From the NCBI RefSeq assembly GCF_011764485.1, contig NZ_AP022848.1, positions 896,001 to 960,000 on the forward strand: a DNA stretch of 64,000 nt, written 5' to 3'. Of the stretch, positions 50,488-58,840 are shown in pieces (within the stretch, counting starts at the first letter, position 1; each line of letters starts with the position of its first letter). The DNA comes from Bosea sp. ANAM02 (GTDB lineage Bacteria > Pseudomonadota > Alphaproteobacteria > Rhizobiales > Beijerinckiaceae). Position numbers and translations under genes: made by a program. The notes beneath the pieces were generated by a model. It saw only the letters and a list, made by a program, of their open reading frames with translations. It searched no databases and was not told where the DNA came from.

Positions 50488-50563
50488 GCTCCCTTCGTCT
50501 AGCGGTCTAGGACGTCGCCCTCTCACGGCGAAAACAGGGGTTCGAGTCCCCTAGGGAGCGCCA
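50488..50563 (+). tRNA. tRNA-Glu (CTC)
   Basis: A 76-base cloverleaf with an encoded CCA. The acceptor stem GCTCCCT pairs with AGGGAGC, followed by G and CCA. The anticodon loop CTCTCAC gives anticodon CTC, read as GAG. The T loop is GGTTCGAGTCCC. Its 3' end is the likely integration point of the element that follows, since an integrase gene starts 1.5 kb away and points toward it. Confidence 0.95.
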
Positions 50564-50957: not shown

Positions 50958-52040
50958 TCACCGCGCCTTGTTTCGTGGCGTCACCATCCGCGTAACCTTC
51001 CGCATGCCAGCTTGGGCCAGCCGCTCCTGTTCGGCCTCTTTCGAATATAGCTCGGCGTGCTTGATGTCTGTGTGACCGAGCGTGTCCATAATCTGCCGCG
51101 TGGTCGCGCCGCTCTCTGCCAGCATTTTCCCGAGCGTCTTGCGCAGGCCGTGAAGCGTGTATCCAGCGGGCATGCCGGCTGATTTGGTCCAGTCTCGCAT
51201 GCGGCCTGTCAGGGACTTCTTCGAAAACGGTTCGCCATAGGCGGTTTTGAGGATGGTCGGGCCAGATAAGTCTGCGCCGTCGAGCACTTCGCGCAGCATA
51301 GGCGTGATCTCAAGCACCAGGTCTCGGCCGGTCTTCCCCTGTGTCAGGCGAACCTTCTCACCGTCAATCGTATCGGGCGTCAGGTCGGCAATGTCGCCCC
51401 GCCGATTACCGAGCCAGAGCGCGAGCGCATACGCCAGCCGCGGCGTGGTCCCGATCGGCCAGCGTTTCTCAAATTTCGCCCGCATCGATTCGGGCCATGC
51501 CTTCCAGCCGACATATCCGGGCCGATGCTTGATCTTGTAGGTCGGGTCGCTCTCGATCCATTCCTCGTCGAGTGCAACCAGGATCATGCGACGCAGCACC
51601 GTCAGCAGATGGCGGGCCGCGTGCGGCGTGTCGCTCATGCCGGCGATGATCATCTTCACGTGTCGGCGCCGCAGATCCTCGACGGGCATGTCGGCCCAGC
51701 AGACGCCCTCTCCCTCGACGATTTCCGCGTTGAGGAACTTGTCGGCGATCTTGGATTGGCGGGCGCGGGTTTCCGGATCGAGCCTTCCCCATTCGGGGAG
51801 GGATGTCGGGACCATGCGCCACGCTGCTTTCAACGACCGCGGAACAGAGGCATGCGGAAGCATGACCACCTCGGCCGAGCGCGGCTCGCGCCCCTCGATG
51901 GCGGCGTCATAGGCTTCCTCGAATTCGGGATGCCCCGGCTCGTGCGGCAGGGAGATCGTTTTGCCAGCGCGGCGAAACCGCCATCGCCAGCGGCCATGGC
52001 GGTCCTTATATCGACCCGCATTCGGATATTCGTCGCGCAT
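50958..52040 (-). CDS. Phage integrase, tyrosine recombinase
   Basis: A 360-aa site-specific recombinase. The N-terminal part has an AP2/arm-type flavour (RYKDRHGRWRWRFRRAGK), typical of phage integrases that read tRNA sites. The catalytic domain contains WLGNRRGDIADLT (Arg I), LTQGKTGRDLVLEI (Lys strand), TLHGLRKTLGKMLAE (His-x-x-Arg) and LGHTDIKHAELYSKE (His and nucleophilic Tyr). The ATG at 52040 is chosen because a longer version would overlap the gene upstream. It should integrate and, with an excisionase, excise the element at tRNA-Glu. Confidence 0.93.
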   Translation of the reverse strand: MRDEYPNAGRYKDRHGRWRWRFRRAGKTISLPHEPGHPEFEEAYDAAIEGREPRSAEVVMLPHASVPRSLKAAWRMVPTSLPEWGRLDPETRARQSKIADKFLNAEIVEGEGVCWADMPVEDLRRRHVKMIIAGMSDTPHAARHLLTVLRRMILVALDEEWIESDPTYKIKHRPGYVGWKAWPESMRAKFEKRWPIGTTPRLAYALALWLGNRRGDIADLTPDTIDGEKVRLTQGKTGRDLVLEITPMLREVLDGADLSGPTILKTAYGEPFSKKSLTGRMRDWTKSAGMPAGYTLHGLRKTLGKMLAESGATTRQIMDTLGHTDIKHAELYSKEAEQERLAQAGMRKVTRMVTPRNKAR

Positions 52041-52050
52041 GGCGATGACG

Positions 52051-52311
52051 CTAGCGGGCGGAGGCCGCTCTCCGCAAGACGGCATCGATCTTGTTTTCCC
52101 TCACTTCGCCGAGCTCACTGAAGGCCATGTCGAGCATGACGCGGTCCCAAAGGACACGCCCGTCGATCCGCTTCGGTTGTGGCATGCGCCGGTCGGCGAC
52201 GAGCTGGTCGAACTTCGTCGGGCCGACGCCGATGTAGTAGGCCGCCTCCTCGCGGCAAAGGCCGCGAGGAGCCCAAGCAATTCCGTCGGTTTTTCCGGTT
52301 GCTCTCGGCAT
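52051..52311 (-). CDS. Helix-turn-helix protein, probable excisionase/AlpA-like
   Basis: An 86-aa protein with a MerR-like winged-helix segment: LCREEAAYYIGVGPTKFDQL followed by VADRRMPQPKRIDGRVLWDR. This pattern is seen in AlpA and phage excisionases. It ends 10 bp before the integrase start on the same strand, the classic xis-int layout. It may bind the arm region and direct excision. Function is inferred from fold and position. Confidence 0.75.
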   Translation of the reverse strand: MPRATGKTDGIAWAPRGLCREEAAYYIGVGPTKFDQLVADRRMPQPKRIDGRVLWDRVMLDMAFSELGEVRENKIDAVLRRAASAR

Positions 52312-52544: not shown

Positions 52545-53042
52545 CTAGAACGGAATATCATCATCCAGGTGGCTGCTGCCGCCCTGCGCTGACTTGCTCG
52601 AGGAATCGCCGGACCTGGCCGATCCGTAGCCCTGGCCGCTGTCGCGATTGCGCATCGTACCGTAGTCGTCTGGGCTCGGTGGATCGCGCTCCGCCTTGTC
52701 GAGGAGCGTGAGCTCGCCGCGAAAGCGCTGGAGCACGACCTCGGTGGTGTATTTCTCGACGCCCTGCTGGTCAGTCCACTTCCGTGTCTGAAGCTGGCCC
52801 TCGAGGTATACCTTCGAGCCTTTCTTCAGAAACTGCTCCGCGACCTTGGCCAGCGCCTCATTGAAGATGACGATGCTGTGCCACTCGGTGCGTTCCTTGC
52901 GCTCGCCCGATTGCTTGTCGCGCCAGGTCTCCGAGGTGGCGAGGCGCAGGCTGGCGACGGGCTCGCCGCTGCCGAGGCGGCGGATCTCGGGATCGCGCCC
53001 GAGATTGCCGACGAGAATGACCTTGTTGACGCTGCCGGCCAT
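52545..53042 (-). CDS. ssb: Single-stranded DNA-binding protein
   Basis: A 165-aa OB-fold protein. The N-terminus [20 protein letters not shown] and [20 protein letters not shown] are standard SSB features, and the C-terminus ends DDDIPF, the tip that recruits partner proteins. A Gly/Ser-rich linker joins them. As a prophage copy it probably serves phage replication or recombination, next to a phage DnaN. Confidence 0.95.
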
Positions 53043-53045
53043 GGC

Positions 53046-53342
53046 TCAAGCCTCGCCATCGGTGCGGGCGACGGGGAGGATTGTCTCGCCCCGCGCATGT
53101 AGCATCATGCAGAAGTTGGCCACGTCGACCGGGTCGCCCTTCTCGACGTGCTCACGAAGCAACTTGCTGAGATGCTCCTGCGAGCAATCGTCTTTATCCT
53201 GCCAGCCGCCTCGGCCTTTCAGTCGGGCGGCTGCAAGCTTCGCCTTCATCGCCTCCTTCAGCCTCTTGATGCCTGCCTTGTTGGCGATCTGGTCGCGCTC
53301 TGCGCGCTCCCATGGCCGTTCGAAATCCATGCTGCTGCCCAT
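53046..53342 (-). CDS. Hypothetical phage protein, 98 aa (GDPVDVANF motif)
   Basis: A small protein with a basic helical first half (KRLKEAMKAKLAAARLKG) and a distinctive second half, CSQEHLSKLLREHVEKGDPV followed by DVANFCMMLHARGE. I know this second pattern from many short phage proteins, where it stands alone, and part of it resembles MazG-type all-helical pyrophosphohydrolases, but I cannot assign an activity. It follows the 75-aa gene with a 1-base gap and is 3 bp from ssb. Confidence 0.75.
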   Translation of the reverse strand: MGSSMDFERPWERAERDQIANKAGIKRLKEAMKAKLAAARLKGRGGWQDKDDCSQEHLSKLLREHVEKGDPVDVANFCMMLHARGETILPVARTDGEA

Positions 53343-53343
53343 G

Positions 53344-53571
53344 TCAGGCTCGAATCTGGCTGAAGAGGTCGCCGGTCTCGCGCTGCACCGCCTGGGCGCG
53401 CAGGAGCGGGGCGGCGATGCGGCGGTTCAGTTCGGCGCGCAGCAGCGCTGCGGTTGCCTTGACGAAGTCGGCGCGGGCCTCGGCCACGCCGCCGCGATGG
53501 CGGCGCGCCTTCTTGTCGAGTGACAGTCGAGCCTCTGCTTGGCGCCGGCGTAATGTCTTGAGTTTCGCCAT
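53344..53571 (-). CDS. Hypothetical prophage protein, 75 aa
   Basis: A highly basic helical protein (KLKTLRRRQAEARLSLDKKA at the start) with no recognised domain. Its ATG overlaps the DUF5131 stop by one base and its TGA is next to the following start, so it fits a translationally coupled chain. It is called on position and on an open frame filling the gap. Confidence 0.65.
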   Translation of the reverse strand: MAKLKTLRRRQAEARLSLDKKARRHRGGVAEARADFVKATAALLRAELNRRIAAPLLRAQAVQRETGDLFSQIRA

Positions 53572-54656
53572 CACGCCGCCCTCGGCATGGCGTTGTGCTC
53601 GACACCGTCGAGCAGGCGGCCGGCGATCGCTTTGGTGGCGCGCAGGCGCGTGCCGCAGCCTGGCGCCCAGACCTTGCCGTTCGCCATCGTCTGGCCGGCC
53701 GGGATATGGCTGCCCCACTGCTTGAAGAAGAATGCCGTTCCGGCAGCGGCGCACTGGTCGCGGATCTGCTGCGCCCATCCGGCCAGCATCTCGCGGGGGC
53801 CATTTTCGCCCCCGACGATGACCCAGTCGAGCACGGGATGCATGTGGCCGCCCGTCGGCATCTCGTACAGATCGAACCAGTCGAGAAATTCGGCTTCCCA
53901 GTCCGCCGACGTGCCGCGCCAGCGCTCGATCTCATCGATCCATGGTGCGGGCTTCAGCGCGTTCATCTCGCCATCGCCATAGGGCAGGTGGTGAAAGTCG
54001 ATCAGGTCGAGGAGTGGCTCGGCCGAGACGAAGCGGACCGCGGCGGGCATCAGCAGCAAGTGCGGCACGCGGTCGATTGCGCGATCCTGATCCTCGGCTG
54101 AGACGCCCTTCCAGACATTCGTCAGCGGCCAACGGCCGAGATGAACGTGCGGCCCAGAAGGCGCGAGAGTCTCGAGCATGCCGGGTGCAATCAGGGTCAC
54201 GTCGAGGCGCATCATCAGCGCCATATCGCAGACGATCTCATGGACCCGCTGCGGTGTGTTGCGATCGGAGCAGTAGCGGCGCATCCGCTCGGCGCGCTTC
54301 GTCAGGACCTGGAAGGTGTGCTGCGGCGCCAGCGCCATGACGGCGAAGACGCGGTCGATCCATGCGTCCGGCACGTCCTCATGGAAGAGATCGCCATGGG
54401 CGCAGACGAAGACCATGCGCGGGCGCTTCCAGCGCAGCGGCTGGGTCAGCCATTCCTCGTTGAAGCGGACCGTGCCGTTCCACACCGGACCGGCCTTCGT
54501 CTCGCGCGTCAGGCCTGCGCGGCTGGGATGATGCTGTAGGCGCGTGCCCGCCAGCTTCATCGCATAGCAGTTGGTGCAGCCGGGCGAGACGACGCTGCAG
54601 CCCGTGATCGGGTTCCAGGTCGCGTCCGTCCATTCGATCTTAGTCGCGTCAGCCAT
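53571..54656 (-). CDS. DUF5131 family protein (phage Gp37/Gp68)
   Basis: A 361-aa protein of the phage Gp37/Gp68 family, function unknown. The signature start KIEWTDATWNPITGC is followed by a cysteine cluster, C20-x6-C27-x2-C30 (GCSVVSPGCTNCYAM), that could hold an iron-sulfur cluster in the manner of radical-SAM enzymes. Further conserved features are TFQVLTKRAERM near 113, DWVIVGGENGPRE near 277 and FFFKQWGSH near 313. The mid-operon position suggests a role in DNA or nucleotide modification, which is inference. Confidence 0.88.
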   Translation of the reverse strand: MADATKIEWTDATWNPITGCSVVSPGCTNCYAMKLAGTRLQHHPSRAGLTRETKAGPVWNGTVRFNEEWLTQPLRWKRPRMVFVCAHGDLFHEDVPDAWIDRVFAVMALAPQHTFQVLTKRAERMRRYCSDRNTPQRVHEIVCDMALMMRLDVTLIAPGMLETLAPSGPHVHLGRWPLTNVWKGVSAEDQDRAIDRVPHLLLMPAAVRFVSAEPLLDLIDFHHLPYGDGEMNALKPAPWIDEIERWRGTSADWEAEFLDWFDLYEMPTGGHMHPVLDWVIVGGENGPREMLAGWAQQIRDQCAAAGTAFFFKQWGSHIPAGQTMANGKVWAPGCGTRLRATKAIAGRLLDGVEHNAMPRAA

Positions 54657-54658
54657 GG

Positions 54659-55576
54659 CTATGCTGCCTTCATCTGAACGATGCTGGCGAGGTCGCCGAC
54701 GGTCACGATCGCTTCGGCCTCGGTGTCGCTGATGGAGATGTCGCGTTCCATCTCGATGTTGGTGAGGATCTCGATCGCGTCGAGGCTGTCCGCGCCGAGA
54801 TCGTCCGAGAGGCGAGCGTCGGCGGTAACCTTCTCACGGTCGACGCCCAGCGCGTCGACGAGGATGCGGGCGATGTCGTCTGGCACCACCACGTCAGAGC
54901 GGCCCTCGTTTCTGTCCGGCTGATCGATCGGGTGGCGCAAATGCTCGATCGCCTTCTCGGGATCAGCGGTGCGCCAGTCGGGCCACTTCCGGGCCTCGTT
55001 TTTCTTCTGCTTGGTGGTGATGGCCTCGACGATCTTCGCGGGCTCCCAACCGGCGCGCCAAGCGCCGTCGAAGGCCAAGATGATCACGTCGACCCATTCC
55101 TCGATATCGTCGGGCTGGGCCTCGATCTCGGCCAGTTCCTTACGGATGTGGTCGATCACGCCCTTGGTGCGCGCCCCCGGACCGAAGGTCTTGTGGCTGA
55201 AAGCGCGCTGACGCTCCAAGTGCGCGACTAGGTCAAAGCCGCCGGCTTCGTAGAACTCATGCGCCTCGCGCCAAACGAGTTCGCGGTAACCTTCCTGCGG
55301 CAGTCCGATATTGTGGACGGCCTTGTGAGCGGAAAGCTCCTGTTCGGCTTTCACAGCGCGCGAGAGCAGTTCCTCGACCGGCTTGACGACCTGCCGACCG
55401 ATCGCGTCGCCGATCCTTGCGGCAGCGGCACAATGCACCTTGTCCTTGCCATAAGTGGTGACGTGCTCGCCGCAGCCTTCGCCGACGGTTCGTGCATAGA
55501 TGATGACCTGGTCGGCCGCATGCGCCTTACAGATGCGCTCGGCTGTCGCGATTGAGATTGGCTTCGGCAGGGCCAT
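54659..55576 (-). CDS. Fusion protein: phage N-terminal region, MazG/DUF550-like domain and acyl carrier protein domain
   Basis: A 305-aa protein with three parts. Residues 1-65 form a phage-type N-terminal region (ATAERICKAHAADQVIIYAR). Residues about 95-200 resemble DUF550/MazG nucleotide pyrophosphohydrolases: FSHKTFGPGARTKGVIDHIR, then E147-x2-E150 and E160-x2-D163 in the metal-binding pattern. Residues about 228-305 are an acyl carrier protein with LSDDLGADSLDAIEILTNIE; Ser264 of the DSL motif is the expected phosphopantetheine site. The frame is continuous. A phage protein joining nucleotide cleavage and acyl transfer is unusual; the joint role is unknown. AAGAGG precedes the ATG. Confidence 0.85.
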   Translation of the reverse strand: MALPKPISIATAERICKAHAADQVIIYARTVGEGCGEHVTTYGKDKVHCAAAARIGDAIGRQVVKPVEELLSRAVKAEQELSAHKAVHNIGLPQEGYRELVWREAHEFYEAGGFDLVAHLERQRAFSHKTFGPGARTKGVIDHIRKELAEIEAQPDDIEEWVDVIILAFDGAWRAGWEPAKIVEAITTKQKKNEARKWPDWRTADPEKAIEHLRHPIDQPDRNEGRSDVVVPDDIARILVDALGVDREKVTADARLSDDLGADSLDAIEILTNIEMERDISISDTEAEAIVTVGDLASIVQMKAA

Positions 55577-55618: not shown

Positions 55619-56731
55619 CTAGACGCGCATCGGCATGAGCACGACGAGGAGGCTGTCGCCTTCGCGCCGCTGGAGGATGGCGGGGGCGCCGGGCTCGGAG
55701 AGCTTGAGCTGGAGGCTGTCGCCGCCCAACACTCCAAGGATGTCGAGCAGGTAGCGGGCGTTGAAGCCGATCTCGATCGCCGTGCCGTCATAGTCCGGCG
55801 TCAGCTCCTCGGTGGCCGAGCCGCTGTCGGGGTTGGTGACCGAGAGCGTCAGGCTGCCCGGCGTCAGCCCCAGCTTCACGGCGCGGCCGCGCTCGCTGGA
55901 GATGGTGGCGACGCGGTCGATCGCCTGCTTGAAGGCCTCGGCCGCCAGCGTCGCGACCTTGTCGTTGCCGGACGGGATGACGCGCTGATAGTCCGGGAAG
56001 GTCCCGTCGATCAGCTTCGAGGTCAGGGTGGTGGCGCCGGCGGTGACGCGGATCTTGGTCGGCGACAGCTCGATCGTCAGATCGCCCTCGGCCTCCTTCG
56101 CGATCTTCGCCAGCTCGGCCACGGTCTTGCGCGGCACGATGACGGCGGGCATGGCCTCGGCACCGGCGGGGGCAGGGAGTTGCAGGCGCGAAAGCTTGTG
56201 GCCATCGGTGGCGACGGCGCGCAGCACGGTGGCGCCCTCGACCGCCATCGCGTGCATGTGGATACCGTTCAGGTAATAGCGGGTCTCCTCCGTCGAGATG
56301 GCGAAGCTGGTCACCTCGACGATCTGGGCCAGCGTCTTCGCCGGCAGGGCGAAGCTGCAGGTGAATTCGCCATCGGCGATATCGGGGAAGTCCGATTCCG
56401 GCAGGGTCTGCAGCGTAAAGCGCGACGGGCCGGATTTCAGGGCCATGCCTTTTTCGCCACCGTCGAGCGTGATTGCGGCTTCGGCCGGGAGCTTGCGCAC
56501 GATATCGCTGAGCGTGTGCGCCGGCAGGGTGATGGCGCCGGCCTCCGCAACCTCGCACGGCACGCTGGTCTCGACCTTGATGTCGAGATCCGTGGCGCAG
56601 AGCGCGAGCTTGCCGCCGTCGGCACGCAGCAGGATGTTTGACAGGACGGGGATGGTGTTGCGGCGCTCGACGACGCGGGAGAGCGAAGCCAAGGCGGGCG
56701 CGAGCACATCGCGCGGGATGGTGATCTTCAT
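55619..56731 (-). CDS. dnaN: DNA polymerase III subunit beta (sliding clamp), prophage copy
   Basis: A 370-aa full-length bacterial-type clamp with three repeats. Visible: RVVERRNTIPVLSNILLRA near 19, ATDGHKLSRLQLP near 173, LIDGTFPDYQRVIPSGND near 240 and the C-terminal LVVLMPMRV. It would encircle DNA and tether a polymerase. The chromosome's own dnaN should lie elsewhere near the origin, so this appears to be a phage-borne second clamp. A UUCG-type hairpin lies directly upstream. Confidence 0.93.
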   Translation of the reverse strand: MKITIPRDVLAPALASLSRVVERRNTIPVLSNILLRADGGKLALCATDLDIKVETSVPCEVAEAGAITLPAHTLSDIVRKLPAEAAITLDGGEKGMALKSGPSRFTLQTLPESDFPDIADGEFTCSFALPAKTLAQIVEVTSFAISTEETRYYLNGIHMHAMAVEGATVLRAVATDGHKLSRLQLPAPAGAEAMPAVIVPRKTVAELAKIAKEAEGDLTIELSPTKIRVTAGATTLTSKLIDGTFPDYQRVIPSGNDKVATLAAEAFKQAIDRVATISSERGRAVKLGLTPGSLTLSVTNPDSGSATEELTPDYDGTAIEIGFNARYLLDILGVLGGDSLQLKLSEPGAPAILQRREGDSLLVVLMPMRV

Positions 56732-56792: not shown

Positions 56793-57761
56793 TCAGGCCT
56801 CGGGAGAACCTTCGAAGGTTGGGAGGGCGGTCTGAGCGGCGACCGTGATCAGGTCGTCGCGCACGCGCTCGGTGACGTGCAGGTCCGGCCGATAGAGCTG
56901 ATAACGCCAGAGGATCTTTTGGCCCGATTTGCGGTAGCGCAGGCGCGCTGGGATCGTGATCTTCTCCCCCATGAAGAAGGGCGCGATCGACAGCATGAAA
57001 AGGCCCTGGACCTTGAGTGGCTGGCCGTTGCCGTCGATATGCTGCTCATCGAACTGGATCGAAGCCTCGCCCGTCGCCAGGTTGACGACATTCTTGACGA
57101 TGCTTTCGACGTTGACCTGAAGGCCGCGCGAGAGCTGGATCAGTTGGGCCGGGGTCGCGATCGTCGTGGCGAAGTCGCGCTCGAGATTGATGCGCTCATG
57201 ATCGTTCGGCGCCGTCAGATCGGCGATTCGATCCTCGAGGAACGCCGCGAATTCGCGCTGTTCCATCTCCTCGCCATTGCCCTTGATCCAGACCTTCCAT
57301 TCCTCCGACAGGGGAAAGGCATAATGGATGCGGTGCTTGAGATTATCAGCGGCGCCGCCGCTCGCCTTATCGTGGTAGTCAACGACCGCGGTGAAGGCCG
57401 GGCCTTTCCAGTCCGTATTGGCGAAAACCGCCGTGTGATCCGTCTTGTGACGGTCGGTTAGGTCGATGAAGGACTGCAGTGTCAGGGCCGTCGCGATGCC
57501 GCGCTTGGCTGCCGGCTTGGTCCGGAAGGCTTCTACGATCTGCGTCGCGGCCGACACTGAGCGGTTCTGCGGATCGATGATGACCGGAACCGCCTTCGGG
57601 ACGCCGGGGCCGAGATCAGGCAGCGAGACTTCCACAATCTCGGGCCGCTGGCTCTTCTTGGTGAGTTCGACAACGGCGGCGATGCCCTTGTCGGAATTGG
57701 GCAGGGCGCCCTCGTGATAGGCTTCGAGGGTGGCGGGTTCGAGTTCGGTAACCTTGGCCAT
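56793..57761 (-). CDS. DUF2303 family phage protein
   Basis: A 322-aa protein of the YfdQ/DUF2303 family, found in many temperate phages; function unknown. Features include QSFIDLTDRHKTDHTAVFA, AFTAVVDYHDKA near 125, a central FAAFLEDRIADL, and RLRYRKSGQKILWRYQLYRP near the C-terminus. In other phages it sits in the recombination or early region, as here. It is preceded by a good Shine-Dalgarno and followed by the dnaN leader hairpin. Confidence 0.9.
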   Translation of the reverse strand: MAKVTELEPATLEAYHEGALPNSDKGIAAVVELTKKSQRPEIVEVSLPDLGPGVPKAVPVIIDPQNRSVSAATQIVEAFRTKPAAKRGIATALTLQSFIDLTDRHKTDHTAVFANTDWKGPAFTAVVDYHDKASGGAADNLKHRIHYAFPLSEEWKVWIKGNGEEMEQREFAAFLEDRIADLTAPNDHERINLERDFATTIATPAQLIQLSRGLQVNVESIVKNVVNLATGEASIQFDEQHIDGNGQPLKVQGLFMLSIAPFFMGEKITIPARLRYRKSGQKILWRYQLYRPDLHVTERVRDDLITVAAQTALPTFEGSPEA

Positions 57762-58135: not shown

Positions 58136-58840
58136 TCAGGCCTCCATAGGCTGGCGAGGGAGCCGCCCGCCGGCGCGGCGCGTGCTCGGGGGCAGGTCGG
58201 ACTTCGGCTTCGGCGCGGGGCGGGCGAGAACGGCCTCGCTCCAGCGGTCGAAGCGGGTGAGCCATTGCTCGGTGGCGCGTGCCGGGGAGAGCGGGACGAT
58301 GCGATGCTTGAGCTTCAGCGTCCCGTAGCTTTCGACGCCCCACGGCCGGGGCGGCCGAGCGAGGAGGTGGTCGCGCTCCGCCAGCATCAGCCGAACATCG
58401 GTCAGCGCGACCGTACGGGCGATCTCCACCGGCAACGGCCAAGGCAGCCCCGCGAGCCGATGCAGCCAAGCGTCGATCGGCGCGCAGAGCTCACGCTTGA
58501 TCGCCTTGATTGAGACGCCCGATCCCGGCGCGAGCCGATCAGCGGCTGCCTGCATGGCCACCATGATCGGCGTAGCCCAGTCGCCGATGATGGCTTCGTG
58601 GCCGTCATGCAACAGGAAGGCGAGCGCTGCCGCCGGATCATGGCTCGCAGCGTAGATCGTATCGGCGCCGATGCAGCAGTGCTGCGCGACCGGATAGATG
58701 ATGCCGCTCGGCATCTGGTTCGCGTAGCGGCCGGTCATGCCCAACGGCGTCGCGATGTCGCGCCGCAGGTCGAGGCCATCCGGCGGGATGGGAGCCAGCA
58801 GGTCGAGGGGGCGGCCGGAGGCAGTCTGGGACCAGATCAT
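58136..58840 (-). CDS. HD-domain phosphohydrolase (YfdR/YfbR-like)
   Basis: A 234-aa protein with the metal-binding residues of the HD superfamily: H54 in YPVAQHCCIGAD, H78-D79 in FLLHDGHEA, and D148 in VALTDVR. This H...HD...D pattern fits YfbR-like 5'-nucleotidases and the phage YfdR group, which act on deoxynucleotides. It probably tunes the dNTP pool during phage growth. It overlaps the 86-aa gene by 4 bp, so it is translationally coupled. Confidence 0.83.
   Translation of the reverse strand: MIWSQTASGRPLDLLAPIPPDGLDLRRDIATPLGMTGRYANQMPSGIIYPVAQHCCIGADTIYAASHDPAAALAFLLHDGHEAIIGDWATPIMVAMQAAADRLAPGSGVSIKAIKRELCAPIDAWLHRLAGLPWPLPVEIARTVALTDVRLMLAERDHLLARPPRPWGVESYGTLKLKHRIVPLSPARATEQWLTRFDRWSEAVLARPAPKPKSDLPPSTRRAGGRLPRQPMEA

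Follow-up and report, generated by a model that had tools for sequence, protein, structure and literature searches.

Within a prophage of Bosea sp. ANAM02 we found a single gene whose product joins a phage nucleotide pyrophosphohydrolase domain (DUF550) to an acyl carrier protein (ACP) domain, and joins of this kind, between an enzyme of the MazG superfamily and an ACP, recur in 26 of the 153 proteins in our set (3 DUF550+ACP, 2 MazG+ACP and 21 of a second, MazG-like family). Carrier proteins belong to the chemistry of lipids and polyketides, and the MazG/DUF550 enzymes of phages to that of nucleotide pools. The observed part consists of the two domains, their intact motifs, a probable tether between them and the recurrence with MazG-type partners. 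As an explanation we favour, tentatively and at somewhat less than even confidence, a nucleotide-pool enzyme of the prophage whose ACP arm is modified by the host and serves in docking or control.

Positions given below without the word genome refer to the window, i.e. the whole stretch of 64,000 nucleotides that was analysed. The fusion gene lies on the minus strand and reads from ATG to TAG in one frame, so the unbroken frame of 305 codons claimed in the preliminary description was borne out; frame 1 of the plus strand is interrupted by stops across 54659-55576. The gene and its parts are as follows:

54659..55576, minus strand: DUF550-ACP fusion gene, 305 aa
55397..55564, minus strand: N-terminal region, residues 5-60, phrog_38816-like (PHROGs, 4e-18)
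54941..55204, minus strand: dATP/dGTP pyrophosphohydrolase domain PF04447 (former DUF550), residues 125-212 (Pfam, 1.6e-25, 89.6 bits)
55088..55138, minus strand: metal-binding motif E147-x2-E150 ... E160-x2-D163 (letters checked; conserved in relatives)
54887..54931, minus strand: linker, residues 216-230 (low pLDDT; GRSD junction as in MazG-ACP fusions)
54683..54877, minus strand: ACP domain PF00550 (PP-binding), residues 234-298 (Pfam, 1.3e-10, 41.8 bits)
54785..54787, minus strand: codon of Ser264, predicted phosphopantetheine site in GADSLDAIE (letters checked; conserved Ser)

Both Pfam scores exceed the curated cut-offs (23 bits for PF04447, 20.8 bits for PF00550). The DUF550/MazG-like enzyme part and the complete C-terminal ACP, first proposed from the letters and the translation, were thus recovered by HMM search, and E147, E150, E160, D163 and S264 are all present as originally named. 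The N-terminal region, described as phage-like, agrees with the phrog_38816 match, and a region like residues 5-60 was also aligned in the homologues P0002, P0003, P0005 and P0008. GC3 is alike in the N-terminal part (0.73), DUF550 (0.85), the linker (0.80) and the ACP (0.87), which fits one coding frame. With both domains in one frame of like GC3 and an architecture that recurs, an assembly error or frame accident could be discarded.

In the enzyme part, which matches phrog_4826 in PHROGs (1.9e-53), the four residues E147, E150, E160 and D163 show no variation across all 14 aligned relatives; we take the pattern E-x2-E ... E-x2-D to be the metal-ligand motif. A profile of these 14 relatives gave one match up to E 10, a weak one (E 0.0052) that spans the catalytic region of MazZ from phage S-2L (7ody). 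Comparison by hhalign of DUF550 with two MazG-type sets gave nothing useful (probabilities of 1.6 and 0.5, versus 61 with E 8e-5 for the two sets against each other), and the kinship of DUF550 with MazG therefore rests on the 7ody match and on published work. Foldseek searches with both models returned carrier proteins only, the ACP chains filling the lists and the DUF550 part being barely sampled. The same catalytic domain (DUF550/PF04447) is found in phage enzymes such as the DUF550-DUF5664 protein of SH-Ab 15497, in P. aeruginosa phages and in Microcystis phage yong2; the latter is 88.1% identical to the fusion protein over residues 114-214, and its DUF550 gene also adjoins a DUF5131 gene. 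From this sequence relationship, the reaction expected of the domain is cleavage of dATP/dGTP to the dNMP and pyrophosphate, the dATP/dGTP activity being that given for the SH-Ab 15497 protein in the excerpts of PMC8342488 and PMC12884076.

The C-terminus matches phrog_5934, annotated 'acyl carrier protein' (PHROGs, 5.4e-15), and the nearest sequences of solved structures are bacterial ACPs (best E 3.8e-13). The modelled ACP fits solved ACPs at 0.7-2.2 A among the 50 Foldseek matches listed, including the AcpS complexes 4dxe and 1f80, and in the model the carrier serine sits in DSL at the start of helix II of a four-helix fold. This serine is invariant in 6/6 and in 10/10 aligned ACPs. The NCBIfam cut-offs for single-gene ACPs were not reached (NF002148, 68.8 vs 71; TIGR00517, 63.2 vs 70.45), and scores near but below the cut-off are as for a divergent fused domain. 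A recent capture of the host's acpP is unlikely, as the fused ACP is only 41% identical to host AcpP at the protein level and 70% identical in DNA over 114 bases. Bacterial AcpP-type ACPs have the same fold and the DSLD motif; the fusion protein differs from them by its hydrolase and by the absence of adjoining fab genes. The host genome encodes two phosphopantetheinyl transferases (PF01648), both outside the prophage, and Ser264 is predicted to receive 4'-phosphopantetheine from one of them.

An AlphaFold2 model of the 305-aa protein (50 sequences) had a mean pLDDT of 83.2 and a pTM of 0.42. Means over ten residues were 92-97 for residues 121-190, 80-87 for 191-210, only 51-61 for 211-230 and again 93-96 in the ACP. 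Low values between two confident domains make a flexible tether between the DUF550 core and the ACP likely; no confident contact between ACP and hydrolase was predicted.

The gene had been placed in a prophage, a setting that the surrounding features corroborate:

50488..50563, plus strand: tRNA-Glu
50958..52085, minus strand: tyrosine-type phage integrase (Pfam, PHROGs)
52545..53042, minus strand: SSB (Pfam)
53046-53342: small gene, phrog_8298
53571..54656, minus strand: DUF5131 (phrog_2045), next gene downstream of the fusion (Pfam, PHROGs)
55619..56731, minus strand: phage sliding clamp (DnaN-like), upstream gene (Pfam, PHROGs)
56793..57761, minus strand: DUF2303 (Pfam)
58136..58840, minus strand: dNMP phosphatase-like protein (phrog_318; without Pfam match)

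The last 19 bases of the tRNA-Glu (50545-50563), which occur once inside the window, are repeated at genome 997019-997037. Together with the integrase this sets the bounds of the element: judged by its sequence, the repeat is attL/attR of a prophage of ~50.5 kb (genome 946545-997037) that extends past the window. On the minus strand around the fusion lie the integrase, SSB, DUF5131, the sliding clamp, DUF2303 and the dNMP phosphatase-like protein, the last of which we take to be of the HD type. Only 2 bases separate the end of the fusion gene from the start of DUF5131. The fusion is thus flanked by the sliding clamp and DUF5131 genes and by no fab genes, i.e. it does not belong to a fabG-acpP-fabF cluster. 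The order HD-SSB-DUF2303-clamp-DUF550-DUF5131 is shared with a Paracoccus prophage (L062) and a Notoacmeibacter prophage (L063), and is partial or rearranged at two further loci (L108, L111); at all four the DUF550 protein is without an ACP. Of 58 DUF550 genome loci, 11 have a DUF5131 gene in their flanks; the 58 were collected by scanning a genome collection (84,980 species by description) with two peptide patterns, so that DUF550 genes lacking the patterns are outside this count. The DUF5131 protein at 53571-54656 has strong matches to the PADLOC candidate models PDC-M41B and PDC-M30B.

Several further genes occupy the far part of the prophage. A dNMP kinase (phrog_139, 6.6e-46; PF21448 at 26.7 bits, slightly below cut-off) lies at genome 992968-993690 (L044 6968-7690) and possibly partners the dNTP pyrophosphohydrolase. 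Near attR, on the minus strand at genome 994492-995837 (L044 8492-9837), are a DarT1-type ssDNA ADP-ribosyltransferase (PF14487, 60.9 bits) and a NADAR antitoxin (PF22397, 311.2 bits), together a toxin-antitoxin pair of a type that has been associated with defence against phages. A protein of the SRAP family (PF02586, 207.6 bits) is encoded beside attR at genome 996041-996769 (L044 10041-10769).

Other contigs also carry the join as single DUF550+ACP or MazG-type+ACP proteins, and not as the separate genes or assembly error that would have spoken against the preliminary description. Among the 120 listed of 788 homologues, at least three are DUF550+ACP proteins: P0001, which is the Bosea protein itself, P0004 (249 aa) and P0006 (282 aa), the latter two with N-termini that differ from that of P0001. 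On the DUF550 side the fusion is nevertheless a rare form. Leaving aside the copy in the window itself, the fetched flanks of the 58 genome loci contained no ACP match, nor did those of 12 viral DUF550 loci (0/12), and we dropped the idea that DUF550 habitually has an ACP gene beside it. No single place in any of 158 matched phage records covered 80% of the fusion protein, and among the 60 phage matches listed the alignment stops at residue 246 or earlier. The fused ACP had no close relative at 1e-5 in 50,697 phage records, and none in viral contigs.

With residues 222-305 as the query and proteins of 168-534 aa considered, five of 126 candidates matched, namely P0001, P0004, P0121, P0122 and P0123. 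P0004 occurs on 2 and P0122 on 3 of the contigs listed. P0121 and P0122 (189 aa each) carry an N-terminal MazG-type domain and no DUF550; they score 22.0 and 20.1 bits against MazG PF03819 (cut-off 22), and their enzyme part matches phrog_229 'MazG-like pyrophosphatase'. The GRSD junction is common to P0001, P0004, P0121 and P0122. Within this group the ACPs are 83% identical between P0001 and P0121 and likewise 83% between P0004 and P0122, compared with 65-70% across the pairs (70% between P0001 and P0122). Thus, in each of two pairs, one ACP lineage is attached to DUF550 in one protein and to MazG in the other. In one genome of the order (G524, locus L207) a MazG gene that lacks an ACP adjoins what by eye is an integrase gene, which makes an exchange of DUF550 and MazG at a like place plausible. 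When 397 genomes of the order were searched with P0122 (E up to 1e-17), no MazG-ACP protein was found, only the MazG alone of G524 and the window's own ACP. The ACP of P0006 is 36-43% identical to the other ACPs of this first group and follows a different linker, and this protein may represent a third fusion event by sequence. P0123, in which the ACP follows a Cys-rich N-terminus, had no match in viral contigs.

A second family emerged from viral contigs, which we scanned with an ACP alignment (406 of 465 pattern matches were confirmed by tblastn, and 80 were kept). Two contigs of 257 and 251 kb (L196, L197) encode the same protein of 279 aa, in which a MazG-like N-terminus is followed by an ACP and then by a C-terminal tail. 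Used as a query, it retrieved 30 proteins: 21 MazG-like+ACP, 2 MazG-like without ACP and 7 ACPs without the MazG-like part, of which one (P0144) is probably cut short. The tail behind the ACP has at least 36 residues in 20 of the 21 fusions, while P0139 ends after the ACP. All eight N-termini tested (those of 7 of the 21 fusions and of the ACP-less P0146) matched phrog_1247 'MazG-like pyrophosphatase' (best 1.7e-14), and E34, E37, E61 and D64 are invariant in them (8/8); the motifs E-x-G-E and GE[VI]AD are present in 21/21 fusions. A profile of these N-termini matched YpjD (2gta, E 0.0021), which we take to be MazG kin, and the nucleotide pyrophosphohydrolase 5ie9 (E 0.043). PF03819 was detected in three of six fusions tested at 11.3-13.4 bits, below the cut-off, and NCBIfam returned nothing useful for this family. 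DSLD is invariant in all 17 aligned ACPs of the second family. Four of these ACPs, when compared with the first group, are 27-40% identical, and this low identity, together with the position of the ACP ahead of a tail, argues for a separate fusion event. On the 257-kb contig, the surroundings of the MazG-ACP gene (L200 9394-11220) include genes that by eye we took to be exonuclease-like, tRNA 2'-phosphotransferase-like and GroES-like.

For both groups together, we infer at least two fusion events from the sequences of the 26 fusion proteins. The count was made with our own profiles, built partly from the matched proteins, and the Pfam, PHROGs and PDB matches are independent of them. All 26 carry the DSLD motif, and this conservation bears on a passive explanation of the join, namely that small genes easily become attached to DUF550 genes in these mosaic phages, that the ACP works or does not work by itself and that its attachment only co-expresses or solubilises the enzyme. 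Several observations would suit such a passive arrangement. P0003 is 85% identical to the Bosea protein through the N-terminal part and DUF550 and ends before the ACP, and P0146 and P0147 lack an ACP while retaining the MazG-like part and, by eye, also the tail. DUF550 also accepts various other domains, such as DUF5664 in Z phages (excerpt of PMC12884076), and the domain of the small gene at 53046-53342 (phrog_8298) stands in frame and N-terminal to DUF550 at 4 of the 58 loci (L087, L090, L091, L093) and in P0106, and C-terminal to it in P0052. However, partners from the MazG superfamily recur in 26 proteins and none of them has lost the carrier motif, although identity falls to about 42% in the second family, and the ACP is C-terminal in one group while a further tail follows it in 20 of 21 members of the other. 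We regard a passive join as unlikely, if still a serious contender. The N-terminal placement of the phrog_8298 domain at 4/58 loci led us to drop the idea that the C-terminus of DUF550 is a common fusion site, though the mixture of fusion partners continues to favour the passive explanation.

Viral contigs that span many G+C contents widely carry ACP genes that stand alone (the 406 confirmed matches), some of these contigs being host DNA, as indicated by neighbours that by eye resemble fab operons of the host (L133, L150). The neighbours of stand-alone phage ACPs are varied, with no common one by eye. Among 1500 genes called at the 80 ACP loci there was one weak MazG match (L199, E 0.0073) besides the fusions. 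For the list of neighbours, we set aside 11 of the 80 loci, in which no ACP ORF had been called, and reduced the remaining 69 to 55 by similarity. In four of these 55 the ACP carries about 75 or more extra residues (L121, L134, L189, L196), and in one of the four the addition is an NTP-pyrophosphohydrolase; shorter extensions in this sample may be start-codon errors. The N-termini of L121 and L134 are without a Pfam match. At L189 (5896-6366) the ACP is joined to a DnaJ-type zinc domain (25.8 bits, below cut-off), so that the Cys-rich, zinc-finger-like region lies on one side of the ACP in P0123 and on the other in L189. Phage ACPs are thus fused to other things too, and fusion alone need not mean shared function. 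The commonness of free ACPs would be in keeping with a decoy role, in which the tail uses up the phosphopantetheine or AcpS of the host, or competes with its acyl-ACP, and so slows lipid synthesis during infection, separately from the hydrolase; two co-isolated cyanophages carrying an ACP plus its synthase point the same way (excerpt of PMC3037559). Yet a free ACP would suffice for this purpose, and the recurrent NTP-pyrophosphohydrolase partners would be left unaccounted for, making such a role improbable.

The gene content of the prophage bears on two further possibilities. The hydrolase could supply dAMP/dGMP to which an ACP-bound acyl or aminoacyl group is added before a phage dNMP kinase returns the modified nucleotide to the pool, and the dNMP kinase (phrog_139), the dNMP-phosphatase-like protein and the adjoining DUF5131 gene would be in keeping with this scheme. 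However, a Pfam profile search of genome 946545-997037 found neither an acyl/aminoacyl-activating enzyme of PF00501 (all 21 matches of the genome lie elsewhere) nor an acetyltransferase of PF13302, and neither family occurs in G774, the viral contig of 257 kb, possibly a fragment. Nor does the prophage encode PurZ, the sole PF00709 (PurA/PurZ) match of the whole genome being located outside it at 1320582-1321835. A role in nucleotide modification is weakened by the lack of PurZ and of a PF00501 enzyme, and we consider it quite improbable. The same PF00501 result speaks against a carrier of an NRPS/PKS-like assembly line. A 2-aminoadenine (Z-genome) pathway of the MazZ/DUF550 + PurZ + DatZ type, suggested by the use of DUF550 in Z phages (excerpts of PMC12884076 and PMC8342488), is extremely improbable in a prophage without PurZ and was rejected.

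We return to the hydrolase with a host-modified arm. Its DUF550 part would lower dATP/dGTP, as does the DUF550 protein of phage SH-Ab 15497, and its AcpP-like ACP would be loaded or bound by fatty-acid enzymes of the host. The tethered holo- or acyl-ACP arm could then dock the hydrolase to an ACP-binding protein of the host; alternatively, hydrolase activity might follow the acyl-ACP state of the cell, by analogy with ACP-SpoT. That the arm binds host ACP partners or reports the acyl-ACP state is suggested by its predicted modification by the host and by the absence from the prophage of an activating enzyme of the searched families. Modification, acyl loading and docking or control are all steps that we infer. 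In the SpoT case ACP makes contact through helix II, according to the excerpt of PMC3340395, and an ACP thereby meets a nucleotide enzyme outside lipid synthesis, but there is no fusion there and both enzyme and substrate are different. The MazG of one cyanophage has dGTP and dCTP as its preferred substrates and leaves (p)ppGpp uncut (excerpt of PMC6850273), so the parallel with SpoT does not reach that substrate.

Each part of the protein has known counterparts. Unlike DUF550 systems of the SH-Ab 15497 type, the Bosea prophage has no PurZ. MazZ of S-2L is likewise an all-alpha NTP-pyrophosphohydrolase, the likeness being that of E 0.005 over the catalytic region, but it is a chain of 111 residues without ACP whose partner genes are purZ and datZ (excerpt of PMC8342488). 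Phage-borne ACPs are described in the excerpts for roseophage prophages with fabG-acpP-fabF (PMC8224337), where they are separate genes read as lipid-synthesis genes, and for the cyanophages with ACP and ACPS (PMC3037559), where they are again separate genes and not the tail of an enzyme. We found no description of a MazG/DUF550-ACP fusion in the open PMC literature, a scope that excludes subscription papers and preprints. As far as we have seen, therefore, the parts are known, and what is new is that they are joined, that the join recurs and that partners are exchanged.

That the join recurs with two enzyme subfamilies, both in a temperate phage and on viral contigs of very large size, points to some benefit for phages in connecting nucleotide and carrier chemistry, and the fusion may help to explain why stand-alone ACP genes are so common in phage contigs. 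It is possible, though on balance we doubt it, that phages have added an ACP to MazG-superfamily enzymes independently at least twice and thereby coupled the nucleotide pool to the acyl-ACP state via a phosphopantetheine-dependent switch or docking arm. A single serine offers a handle on whether infection ties the supply of DNA precursors to the lipid state of the host. If true, covalent phosphopantetheine-dependent control of a nucleotide hydrolase would be a principle that we have not seen described for these enzymes.
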